Below, piece by piece: positions 17,639 to 39,031 of a stretch of 64,000 nt of DNA (position 1 is the stretch's first letter; the number at the start of each line of letters is the position of its first letter). Location of the stretch: the NCBI GenBank assembly GCA_017871115.1, contig JAFCIZ010000002.1, forward strand, positions 1,571,501-1,635,500, in the 5' to 3' direction. The position numbers and the translations under genes were made by a program. The stretch is from Cunninghamella blakesleeana (lineage: Eukaryota; Mucoromycota; Mucoromycetes; Mucorales; Cunninghamellaceae). The notes beneath the pieces were generated by a model. The model worked only from the letters and a program-made list of their open reading frames with translations. It searched no databases and was not told the origin of the DNA.

Positions 17639-17710
17639 GGGCTTCTCCGGGAATCGAACCCGGGACCTCTCGCACCCTAAGCGAGAATTATACCACTAAA
17701 CCAAGAAGCC
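17639..17710 (-). tRNA. tRNA-Pro (anticodon AGG)
   Basis: 72-nt cloverleaf on the minus strand from 17710 to 17639. The acceptor stem GGCTTCT pairs with AGAAGCC, with discriminator C. The anticodon stem is CTCGC/GCGAG with loop TTAGGGT (AGG, proline). The T-arm is CCGGG-TTCGAAT-CCCGG. There is no intron and CCA is not encoded. Box A- and B-type internal promoter sequences are intact (B box GGTTCGAATCC). It sits at the right-hand end of the repeat island. Confidence 0.97.
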
Positions 17711-33927: not shown

Positions 33928-36900
33928 TTAGTTTTGATTATTAGAAGCAACTTCTAAAGTATATTTTTCATCATCGTTTAATTGTTGATATATTTCCAAA
34001 AAGTGATTAATATTATGAGTATTGCAGTTTCGGAAAAAGTCAACCAAGTATGTCTATTATGCATTAAAAAATAATAATACATTGATCAATTGATTAGCCA
34101 ACCTATAAAATTTTCAGTTCTAATTTTGTTTCTTTTTTTTCTATTATTACCTTCATATCAGTTTGATAAATAGGATCATTCTTCAAATCAGGATTATTTT
34201 CTTCATCATCATCTTCTTCGTTTAAGTTAGCTAATACATCTAATATCAATATAAATAAATAAGTGCATAAAAAAAAAAGCAATGTTTAGTTATTGAGTTA
34301 TTGTCAATTAGTATATTATTTATTTACCTGATAAAAAGTTATAATCTTGACGAGAAGAGAAGCCAGATTCATCAACAGTATCTTCCCAATCTCCATCCTA
34401 ATGTTTATTAAATAAATAAATAAGTACGAAAATGAAAGTATATATTAATATACCAATATACAAACTTATACTTTTATAAATAAAACTTACTTCATCACCA
34501 ATAGATTCATTATCTTCTTGAGGAGCAGGATCGTTAGGTAAAGCATTTCCAAGATCTGCAATTAATAGCTTGATAATTTTAACAGGTAATGGGATAGCTG
34601 TATATTGATCAGGATCTATTATGTAAATTATAATAAATAGAAATGAATAAGTATATATATATATATATGTATTAAAAGTGGTATTAGTAAAAATAAAACG
34701 TATAAAATACTTACTTCGTTTTGCTCTTGATCTTGTAACAATTCCGGCATTAGGATTAACGATGATATCACCTTTAACTGTCATATTTTGTAAATTTGGA
34801 TCATTAATAAGGAAAATCTTTGATAAAGCAACAGCACTAAAATATAATAATTAATAAAAAAATACAGGAAGTTAGTTGTGAGATAATAGCAATAATAATC
34901 AAACATTTTTATATACTTATTTTTTTAAATAATTACCTGACTTTAAGTGAATAATAACCAGAGAAACTTTCATAATTTTCGACCCAATGATTCATCAATA
35001 TTTGCAAACCACTTTTACCATTAATATTAGTAGATGAAAGGAATCCTAAGACAGTTTCTTGTTGTGAATTGAATAAATGAGCAAATACCATAACAAGAGA
35101 CTATAGTATGTTGTGTTGAGTAAAAAGTATTAATTTAAATAAGTTATATTGTATATTTATTATTATTATTATTATTATTACTTGAATGAATGGTTGGTAG
35201 TTGGTGGCTTCTAATTTCACCAAAACGGCGTTTAATAAATTAGGTAATACAGGAGCGATGCTATTTCCAACCTAAGATTTTAGCAAAAAAAAGAAGTTAG
35301 TTTTTTTCTTTAAAAAGATGAATAAATATAATGAAATGATAAAATAAACTGGTAGCATTTTTACCTTTTGAATCATAGTAACAATAAGATCGCCAACAAA
35401 GAACGCTTCAGAATCACCAACAGATGGTTCCAAGAGTTTTGCAACAAAGTGAATAGCATAATCTAAACCAGATTTTCCAGCTTGGTCATGCCTATATAAT
35501 AAAAAAAATCACGATTGTGATTAGTTAATTAGTTTATCCATAGTTTTTTTTATAAATATATTAATCAAATCATTTTTAGTCGAATTTTACCAGTTAACAA
35601 TGTGATCACTATCTTTCATAATAAAGTGTTTTAAACATTCTTGAGCGCTCTAAGATTATAAAATAAAAATAGTAGTCGAATTAAGTATATGTATTAATAA
35701 ATATTATATATTGATATTAATTATTAGTATGAGTATTTATATATTTACTTGTAAAACATCATTATCATGAACATTCCAAGCAACTTGCATTAATAATGGA
35801 TACATTTGTTCGGTAAATTCATTTGCTAATGGGGCAGGGCCATAATGAATCATGGCAGTTAAAAGATCAATAGCAGACTATAGAAAAAAAAAATATAAGA
35901 TAATAATCCATTTATTAGTTATATTTTTTCACCTCTCTCTCTCTCTCTTTTTTTTTTTTTTGACAACTTACAGCATATACAATAGGTTCGGCATCAGGGT
36001 TATTAAGAACTTGACTAATAAATGGAAGAGAACGATTACAAAGTGAAGGGAAATACAAAGGATTTTTGGCGAATTCTTCAAATACATCCAATACGTAACT
36101 TGTAATAATAGAGTCGGAGGGGAATTTTTTCCAGATATCCAAAACAGTAGGTGTTAAAATATGTTCATATTGAGCAGTAACTTCATTGTTGATCTAAAAT
36201 ATTGATATAAACATAACATTATAATACATGTATATATTTAGTAATATAATTACTTAACTATTATATATGTATTTATTGTAATAGTGTTTTTATTATAGCT
36301 TTCTTTATTATTATTTATATAATTTACCCTCACGGCAGAACCTAAAGTATCCAAAAGTAACATCAATGATTCTTCAGTTGCTAAAGGAAGTAATTGACAT
36401 GTACCTTCCAAGATGTTAGTTTGATAATGGTTAACGTATTGAGCATCCAAGTGTTTACAGTAACTAAAAAATAAAAAAGAGTATAATAAATGGTAATATA
36501 TAATATTAGTATTATAAATCACAGCATTTGGTATAAATCATTTTTTTTATTATATACTTACTTGTTTAATGCATTAAGAGCTGAAATCTTAACGGGAATG
36601 CCGCTATCAGGAGATTGAAGAGCATTGACAGCAACAGCTACATATTGATTTGACATTTCTGCTGGCAAAATTTTTGCGAATTCTGAAGCAAAAACGAAAG
36701 CACGTCCTTGTAAAAATGGATATTCTATAATAAAATAATAATAATACAAATGTAATTATATTTATGAGATCAAACCATCATAAATTGTATATATGTATAA
36801 TTAGTATTTTATTATTTACCGGCAAGTTTCATATCTTCCAATACAGCATGATCAAATAAACTCTTCAAATCAAATTGAACAGTCTTTGAATCATCTTCCA

Positions 36901-39031
36901 ATGCTTCTGTTAAATCTTCAGATAATCTGCCAATAGCTAATAAACATGCTTCTTGAATTTTCCACCTGGGAATTCAAAATAAATAAGTAAAAGAAATAGA
37001 TAATGATTAAATTAATATTCATATTTTGATAGAAAATTTAACCATAATGGAGTTTTTTTTTTTTTTTTACCATTCTCCATTTCCAGCAGCGCGGGCTTCA
37101 TTGGATTCACTAATATGACGTTGAACAGCTTTACTTAAAGCATTAAAGAATGGGGCAGGGTATGTATCTTGTAATCCCTATTAAAAAATTAAAAAGAATA
37201 ATAATAAAGTAAAGTTAAATGAATATTCCTCCTTATATATATATCTAAAAAATTCTTACCATAAGAACATCTATAGCAGCAACACGAGCATTAAAAGAAA
37301 AGGTACTTTCTTCTTCATCAGCAACAAATTGATTGGCATCATTTGACCAGGTTTCAGCTTGTTCTTGAGTAATTTGCATATAAATAATAGAGACATATAA
37401 GAGTTGTTCAAAGAATTCAGTAGGACCATTATCATTACCAATGAAGAGAGGACGAACTGATTTTTTATTACATGCAGCAGCTACAAAGTCAAAAAGAGAA
37501 TAAAGTAAACTTTGGAAACCAATTTCATTACCATCTGAATCTAAAAAGGTTTCAGCTACATCACCAGAATCTATGACAAATTCTTGTACATAACGATTAC
37601 GTAAATTATAAAGATCGTGCCAAATAGGTTCAAAAAGCTGAGGAAGAGCTGGAAGAATGTATTTAGAGAATTCAGAGCTAAGAATACAAATAGACTATAC
37701 AAATATTATAACCGTTAAAAAAAAGGATTCATATATATCTATATAATCCTTATGATTCTCTCTTTTATATATTTATTTCAAATGATTTTTTTTATCATAC
37801 CTTAACAACATCCATCTTTAAACCATATTCTTCATTAGCTTTTTCTTCATTATCTTGAACATGATGGCTGAGAATTGTATTAAAGGCTTGTAACCATTGT
37901 TGAATAATAGGTTCTATGAATTGAACAGCAAGAGTAGGATTTTCTTCGCGAAGAGTAGCCAACATTTCAACGCAGCTACTAAAAATATTGACAGCACGAC
38001 CACGTGTACGGAATGAATAAACCTACAAGTATAATATTAGAAGATGGAATAAAATAAAAATGAATAAAAAAAATAATCAATTACTATTTTATTTATTTAT
38101 TTATTTATTTTTCTATTATATTTTTTATTTCTTACACTATCAGAGGTTAAAATAGTAAATAATTCGGGTATTAAAACAGGACCTACTTGGGGTAGCTGTT
38201 GGATACTAATATCTTTTTTCACCATTTCAAGTAATACACGCATAGCACCATGGACGCTATCAGCGTTATTGGATTTTAAATAAGAGAATAAAATATCTAA
38301 TAAATTTGGCCAATCTTCTGGAAAATCATCATTAGCAATCTTAGAAACAACGTAGGCACTCACTACACGGATTTTTGATTCAGGGTCGGCTAAACCATTG
38401 ACAATAATTTCTCGAACGAGTTTTTTATTCTATTATTTAATCAATATATATATAATGAAAGAAAATATAAATATATGTGTACACTTTTTTATAATTATAT
38501 ATTCAATAAAAATTATCCTATTATATATATATGTATATAACTTACTTCAACAGGTGGTTCAGGACCAATAAATTTGTCATCATGTTTTGGAGACCAATGA
38601 GTTGTTACATATGTTTTTAAAGTTAATGCTGCCAAGTATTGATTTGAAAAAAAAAAAAAAAAAAAAAAAAGGTTAAGGAAAATATATGTATCATAAATTC
38701 TTATTGGTTAGTATTATTTCAATATTATATATATATATAATAAAAAGGATATTTGACGATGAGGAATAGCTATTTCTTGAGAAACAGTTAAACGAGCCAA
38801 ACTAACAGGGAATTCTAAACATGATATATATATATATATATACATATTTGATCAAAAAAAAAAATAAGGAACAGTTAGAAAAAAGAAAAAATGACAAAGA
38901 AAAAAGGTTGACATATAATGAATATTACCAGGAGTACTAGCTAATTCTTTTAAACGAGCTTCAGCTTCAGAACGAATAGTATAGTCACTATCAGCTACTC
39001 TTAAGAGTGTCTCATATACAACTTGATCCAT
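33928..39031 (-). CDS. Importin-9 (Kap114-type karyopherin beta), with a U12-type AT-AC intron
   Basis: Nuclear import receptor (histones, ribosomal proteins, TBP in known homologues). Twenty-one exons: 38929-39031, 38753-38814, 38546-38635, 38136-38429, 37801-38022, 37260-37694, 37071-37177, 36820-36965, 36562-36724, 36328-36463, 35972-36193, 35749-35877, 35591-35649, 35365-35491, 35182-35271, 34937-35100, 34715-34836, 34491-34615, 34328-34397, 34151-34239, 33928-34053, joining to 1026 residues (human 1041). Conserved: RQLAALTLKTYVTTHW, VHGAMRVLLEMVKKD, QITQEQAETWSNDANQFVAD, EWWKIQEACLLAIGRL, VMVFAHLFNSQQETVLGFL, an acidic segment EEDDDEENNPDLKNDPIYQ near the C-terminus. Intron 2 (38636-38752) starts ATATCCTTT and ends AC; the other introns are GT-AG. 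Confidence 0.96.
38636..38752 (-). other. U12-type (minor spliceosome) AT-AC intron in importin-9
   Basis: On the minus strand the 117-nt intron begins ATATCCTTTTT (the U12 5' site consensus is RTATCCTTT), contains TTCCTTAAC (an exact match to the U12 branch-point consensus), and ends AATAC. Using these ends restores PHRQLAALTLKTYV, the expected importin-9 sequence. Between branch point and 3' end is a 24-T run, so the spacing (about 37 nt) is longer than usual. Confidence 0.85.

Follow-up and report, generated by a model that had tools for sequence, protein, structure and literature searches.

A predicted U12-type AT-AC intron in importin-9 of Cunninghamella and the distant branch points of most AT-AC introns found in the genome

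Introduction

The importin-9 (IPO9) gene studied here has a candidate intron that begins with AT, ends with AC and places its putative branch point far from the 3' splice site (3'ss). Is this a genuine U12-type intron, and does the long branch-to-3'ss spacer belong to this gene alone or to the AT-AC introns of the genome at large? Cunninghamella is a member of the Mucorales, as are Rhizopus and Phycomyces.

According to the passages cited here, the 5' splice site (5'ss) and the branch site are the defining features of U12-type introns, which have no distinct polypyrimidine tract (PMC3584512) and an optimum branch-to-3'ss distance of 11-13 nt (PMC3584512, PMC6717393). Among fungi, Dikarya are described as having no minor introns, and Rhizophagus irregularis as having 205 together with all four snRNAs (PMC10639083). 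Minor introns are already known in Mucorales, with about 4 reported for Rhizopus oryzae and about 20 for Phycomyces blakesleeanus (PMC10639083, PMC2846911). In the open-access literature, outside which earlier work may exist, we found no work joining IPO9 with the minor spliceosome, none on Cunninghamella U12 introns and none on Mucoromycota minor introns and the minor spliceosome together; among the open-access matches listed, no title or abstract start dealt with the spacer length of fungal minor introns.

Results

Predicted U12-type signals in intron 2 of importin-9

The window, that is, the whole 64-kb stretch of DNA analyzed (25.9% G+C), spans G000:C2:1571501-1635500 in a genome of 31.9 Mb and 12 contigs. 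It contains the following features.

33928..39031, minus strand: importin-9 (IPO9/Kap114 family) gene; hand-made model with 21 exons and 1026 aa; PDB human importin-9, E 2.9e-184
38636..38752, minus strand: U12-type AT-AC intron 2 of the importin-9 gene, predicted from sequence signals and homology across the junction; 117 nt, phase 0
38744..38752, minus strand: 5'ss ATATCCTTT, exact motif match
38672..38680, minus strand: branch-point sequence TTCCTTAAC, exact motif match
38647..38670, minus strand: T24 run within the branch-to-3'ss spacer, read from the sequence
38636..38637, minus strand: 3' terminal AC of the intron (AATAC), read from the sequence

With slashes at the intron ends, the minus strand from 38752 to 38636 reads CAA/ATATCCTTTTTA...TTTTCCTTAACC(T24)CAAATCAATAC/TTG. 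The donor agrees with the extended U12-type 5'ss RTATCCTTT, the branch site matches the U12-type TTCCTTRAY exactly (9/9), and protein homology would have the exons joined across the AT and the AC. All three features named in the original prediction (donor, exact branch motif and AC end) are thus present, and its estimate of about 37 nt between branch point and 3' end, with a T24 run, proved exact: the second A of TTCCTTAAC lies 37 nt from the intron end, and 24 of these nucleotides form one T run. The intron departs in this distance from the short-spacer trait of U12 introns (optimum 11-13 nt), and with its T24 run and a spacer that is 83% pyrimidine it also departs from the trait of having no polypyrimidine tract.

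The combination of donor and branch site is beyond chance, because the pattern ATATCCTT-N51-81-TTCCTTAAC occurs twice in all 32 Mb of the genome and its reversed-pattern control not once. The second match falls in a protein kinase gene, where the AT-AC join is in frame. With the looser pattern [AG]TAT[CT]CTT, 20-100 nt, [CT]CTTAAC, the IPO9 site is the sole match in the window.

A genome-wide set of AT-AC introns

Two relaxed patterns, ATATCCTTTT-N25-55-CTTAAC (11 genome matches, reversed-pattern control 1) and ATATCCTTTT-N56-86-CTTAAC (18 matches, control 1), together gave 29 loci against 2 for the reversed controls. The five loci from two stricter patterns (2 matches, control 0; 3 matches, control 1) all fall within the 29. 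The resulting set is limited to the fixed donor and branch core used in the search patterns, which left the branch-to-3'ss distance unconstrained. For each locus the AC dinucleotides 7-71 nt past the branch A were listed and the reading frame was checked, and 19 of the 29 loci were retained for a convincing in-frame AT-AC join. Dropped by judgement, for lack of a convincing join, were L013, L021, L024, L025, L026, L027, L030, L035, L038 and L040; several of these do show a short in-frame join. At L024 an AT-AC intron was rejected, the matched letters reading through as coding sequence.

A Pfam or PDB match spans the junction in 11 of the 19 retained introns. These homology-supported AT-AC introns lie in genes for importin-9, a protein kinase, FancD2, Ion_trans, PEP5/VPS11, Gaa1, CLP1, a CBF/NF-Y histone fold, Brr6, prefoldin and RabGAP-TBC. 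The matches are near-colinear with the profiles (FancD2, 1-70 on 474-543; prefoldin, 6-41 on 38-73); Ion_trans scores 23.2 bits, just below the Pfam cut-off of 25, and RabGAP-TBC 25.3, just above its cut-off of 25.2. No Pfam match, or weak ones below the cut-off, were obtained for L014, L020, L032, L033, L034, L037, L039 and L041. At L039 a weak zf-TFIIIC match crosses the junction (17.9 bits, cut-off 23), and the join to an alternative AG end has no Pfam match. Where two ACs came into question we fixed one: the Gaa1 intron (L028) scores 113 bits at a distance of 14 nt and 104.6 at 38, and 14, the value less favourable to a long-spacer reading, was used; L033 allows 18 or 21 nt, and 21 was used.

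L032 and L043 are similar genes in which an AT-AC intron precedes RDAMLDS at the corresponding position; L043 scored as RabGAP-TBC, and L032 had no Pfam match. Their spacers measure 21 and 50 nt, and spacer length therefore drifts between copies. L014 may hold a second minor intron in the same gene, on the minus strand at about 2080-1980 (ATATTCTTTTT ... TTCTTAAC ... AACAC). A genome-wide search for GT-AG minor introns with the single pattern GTATCCTT-N30-60-TCCTTAAC gave 0 matches (control 0), so the AT-AC subtype may dominate the minor introns of this genome.

Spacer length and composition

In the 11 supported introns, the branch A and the 3'ss lie 11, 14, 24, 30, 35, 37, 37, 40, 43, 47 and 50 nt apart, with a median of 37 nt. 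All 19 retained introns cover 11-50 nt (median 35), and 16 of them exceed 20 nt. The distant branch point, at first considered unusual, is accordingly common to most AT-AC introns found in the genome and not peculiar to IPO9. In the introns above 20 nt, the best branch-like 9-mer located 8-20 nt from the end matches at no more than 6 of 9 positions or is missing altogether, against 7-9 for the distal site.

The spacers are richer in pyrimidines than the donor-to-branch part, both in the 11 supported introns (0.72 vs 0.55, Wilcoxon p 0.019) and in all 19 (0.69 vs 0.56, p 0.011). We found no depletion of AC inside the spacers (4 observed vs 4.3 expected), and a simple scan for the first AC is therefore unsupported by composition; inner AG was observed 0 times vs 3.1 expected. 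YAC ends 18 of the 19 spacers, and the exception, L033, has an in-frame TAC 3 nt upstream; taken alone, these YAC ends are weak evidence, because T and C together make up 72% of the spacer sequence. No folding able to shorten the spacers was found, with energies of 0 to -1.6 kcal/mol.

The IPO9 spacer could owe its length to an assembly or sequencing artefact or to a recent homopolymer expansion, an explanation that concerns this spacer only and is compatible with a U12-type intron. Homopolymers are error-prone, and removing the T24 run from the 37 nt would leave 13 nt, the usual distance. Among the 15 other retained introns with spacers of at least 20 nt, 14 have a longest T run of 4-10 nt and the CLP1 intron has one of 16 nt; the NF-YB intron combines a T run of 7 with a distance of 47 nt, and the TBC intron one of 6 with 50 nt. 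Expansion could therefore account for IPO9 alone and not for the set, and even for IPO9 we consider it improbable.

In their ATATCCTT donor, TCCTTAAC branch site and AC end, the introns found here are like the U12-type AT-AC introns described for animals and plants (PMC2831892, PMC3584512). They are unlike them, as these sources present them (11-13 nt, no tract), in the median of 37 nt and the pyrimidine-rich spacer of the 11 supported introns. The U2-type introns of the genome differ from the AT-AC set by their GT-AG ends and degenerate branch site. Their 3' ends, sampled from the IPO9 gene, look much the same: the last 36 nt of the U2 introns (n=19) are 0.65 pyrimidine, compared with 0.69 in the AT-AC introns (n=19; Mann-Whitney p 0.21), and a rough guess at their branch sites, which is weak since the site is degenerate, puts the median distance at 37 nt. 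Judged by sequence, most minor introns in this sample have 3' ends like those of major introns, and this predicted architecture departs from the described U12 form.

The scan ranges of earlier surveys bear on how such introns are counted. The 2010 survey sought branch sites at -40 to -5 only (PMC2846911), a range that would miss the 43-50 nt cases of this genome. Ranges given elsewhere reach up to -40 (PMC6717393) or run from -55 to -5 (PMC7367187). Spacer length does not come up in the passages of PMC10639083 and PMC2846911 that discuss the Rhizopus and Phycomyces minor introns. The consensus features of Rhizophagus irregularis are presented as close to those of animals and plants (PMC10639083), unlike the long spacers found here.

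Predicted minor-spliceosome components

The genome contains a predicted U11 snRNA gene:

G000:C2:1639526-1639710, minus strand: predicted U11 snRNA gene; Rfam 70 bits, cut-off 39

Its predicted 5' end (AAAAAAGGGCGCG) could form 8 contiguous pairs with the donor TCCTTTTT, GU allowed. A predicted U6atac gene scores 54.5 Rfam bits, above the cut-off of 33. The U12 candidate, at 38.2 bits, lies under its cut-off of 53 (E 6.4e-5); UGCCU and GAGUAAGGA are intact in it, and its branch-pairing segment reads AAUGAGUAAGGA. No U4atac was obtained by Rfam among the 48 scored of 1325 first-look candidates. A search with the complement of the U6atac stem as its pattern gave 2 matches vs 7 in the reversed control, and both were discarded, one being the U6atac gene itself and the other (L012) coding-like. 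The search for the U11-48K finger (zf-U11-48K) returned zero candidates at any stage and is hence a weak negative. That for the U11/U12-65K RRM gave 8 matches, and the two inspected (L016, L018) appear U1A/U2B''-like. In the search for ZCRB1 homologues, those with a visible species name among the 120 of 1069 matches listed are vertebrates. The proposed check for minor-spliceosome RNAs and proteins was borne out for U11 and U6atac, both above the cut-off, and gave a candidate below the cut-off for U12; U4atac was not found by these searches, and the protein searches were uninformative.

The predicted U11 gene shares a contig with importin-9, at a distance of about 29 kb, and lies about 4 kb past the end of the window. 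In the window itself the only Rfam match at gathering score is a tRNA gene at 17639-17710 (minus strand).

In the splicing pathway that we propose for the IPO9 intron, U11 would pair with ATATCCTTTTT of the donor and U12 with TTCCTTAAC at the branch site, and U6atac would then take the place of U11 at the donor. The 3'ss would be the AC (YAC) beyond the long unstructured T-rich spacer, giving HRQ/LAAL. We infer from the sequences both that U12-dependent splicing of these introns really occurs and which bases of U11 and U12 would pair with the intron in vivo; the binding of any factor to the T-rich spacer is likewise presumed.

Alternatively, the AT-AC intron might now be removed by the major (U2) spliceosome through its T-rich tract and a U2-like branch, the U12 motifs being relics. 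Its major-like 3' end, with the T24 tract and the 37-nt spacer, would suit such a route, and PMC6717393 and PMC3033335 mention AT-AC introns that the major spliceosome processes. The exact ATATCCTTT donor speaks against relic motifs, as does the retention of predicted U11 and U6atac in the genome. Six of the nine branch positions were fixed by the search, but the three free ones fit as well: 16 of the 19 retained candidates agree with TTCCTTAAC in at least 8 of the 9 positions. Such exactness is not expected of relics, and we regard removal by the major spliceosome as very unlikely.

The importin-9 gene model and the choice of splice ends

The hand-made model closes in frame throughout at 1026 aa (39031-33928), as the original prediction had it, and its 19 other introns are GT-AG. 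The AT-AC join restores the residues RQLA, where human importin-9 aligns ungapped (RQLASVILKQYVETHW) and yeast Kap114 reads RQFALLSLRK. The closest deposited protein, from Cunninghamella echinulata (P0001), reads PHRQLAALTLK and is exact across the AT-AC junction; its gene model presumably rests on transcript data. Against this protein our model shows 4 mismatches and, near intron 18 (window 34490-34398), a single gap of 13 residues, which indicates that the genome belongs to C. echinulata or a very near relative. The 13 residues are missing around the junction in the C. echinulata protein, which possibly reflects another splice choice.

The original prediction had also pointed out a GT-AG alternative that deletes RQLA, and it does exist: an ordinary U2-type intron of 129 nt (GTCAAATA ... 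TTGGCAG), overlapping the AT-AC signals by chance, would be in frame with 1022 aa, and models deposited for Absidia, Apophysomyces, Helicostylum and Rhizopus microsporus show a comparable loss of residues at this place. We nevertheless give this explanation the least credence of all, since its join deletes RQLA from a conserved helix and lowers the Pfam IBN_N score from the 51.3 bits of the AT-AC join to 27.6, since RQLA or RQ is kept in the human and yeast proteins and RQLA in that of C. echinulata, and since it leaves the exact U12-type donor and branch motifs unexplained.

The U12-type reading, by comparison, restores the conserved segment, finds minor-spliceosome RNAs predicted in the genome and agrees with the C. 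echinulata protein across the junction. By sequence and homology, the IPO9 intron is of the U12 type. We are highly confident that it is a genuine U12-type AT-AC intron within an eleven-member homology-supported set whose 3' ends are mostly major-like.

The junction in deposited Mucoromycotina models

The proteins P0001-P0029 were taken as Mucoromycotina IPO9 models (P0025 and P0026 are metagenome proteins), and a junction was counted as disturbed when a model spanning it had an indel of at least 2 residues nearby. Junction 2, the AT-AC junction, carries such indels in 8 of 21 spanning models (8 of 29 lack a span), junction 1 in 3 of 19 (10 of 29) and junction 3 in 3 of 21 (8 of 29). N-terminal truncation is therefore not specific to junction 2, the three junctions being unspanned alike. 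Four of the 8 junction-2 indels (P0012, P0016, P0017, P0020) are shared with junction 1 or 3; the 4 specific to junction 2 (P0002, P0003, P0010, P0013) all occur in named Mucorales models. At junctions 4-17, 19 and 20, indels affect 0 or 1 of 27-29 models, and at junction 18, where the protein is acidic and variable, they affect 6 of 29. RQLAA is read undisturbed in 12 of the 29 models, which fits an intron that is correctly annotated or absent.

In the Cokeromyces model (P0015), IIILNPLFFFVY is followed by LAALTLK, an apparent read-through of the intron end. Its protein letters would correspond to translation through ...ATCCTTAAC plus 21 nt, with a branch-to-3'ss distance of about 22 nt. The disturbance at junction 2 is suggestive, short of proof, of an intron overlooked by GT-AG gene finders in several genera.

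Possible changes in 3' splice site recognition

In humans, the 3'ss is described as recognized by U2AF1 in U2-type introns and by ZRSR2 in U12-type introns. The same source reports 101 predicted human U12-type sites that overlap U2AF1 binding sites, most of them also bound by ZRSR2, and a PFDN5 3'ss to which donors of either type, U2 or U12, are joined (PMC10853781). We tentatively raise the possibility that the minor spliceosome of this lineage locates the 3' end in an altered way: in most of its introns the spacer would be a polypyrimidine stretch, major-like and 20-50 nt long, and the AC site might be set by a U2AF-like tract-binding factor or by a relaxed ZRSR2 homologue, in contrast to human minor introns, which are ZRSR2-bound and without a tract. 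If so, the genome would provide a natural contrast between those parts of 3'ss recognition that are fixed in the U12 system and those that are exchangeable with the U2 system. If the minor introns of Mucorales commonly have branch points at 30-50 nt, branch scans over a narrower range would count too few of them, and gene models may be disrupted at such introns by GT-AG gene finders, something that part of the IPO9 models suggest.

As a separate observation, an AG directly follows the terminal AC in 8 of the 19 retained candidates (L009, L014, L020, L031, L032, L033, L037 and L043); it lies 2 nt downstream and would place the join in another frame.
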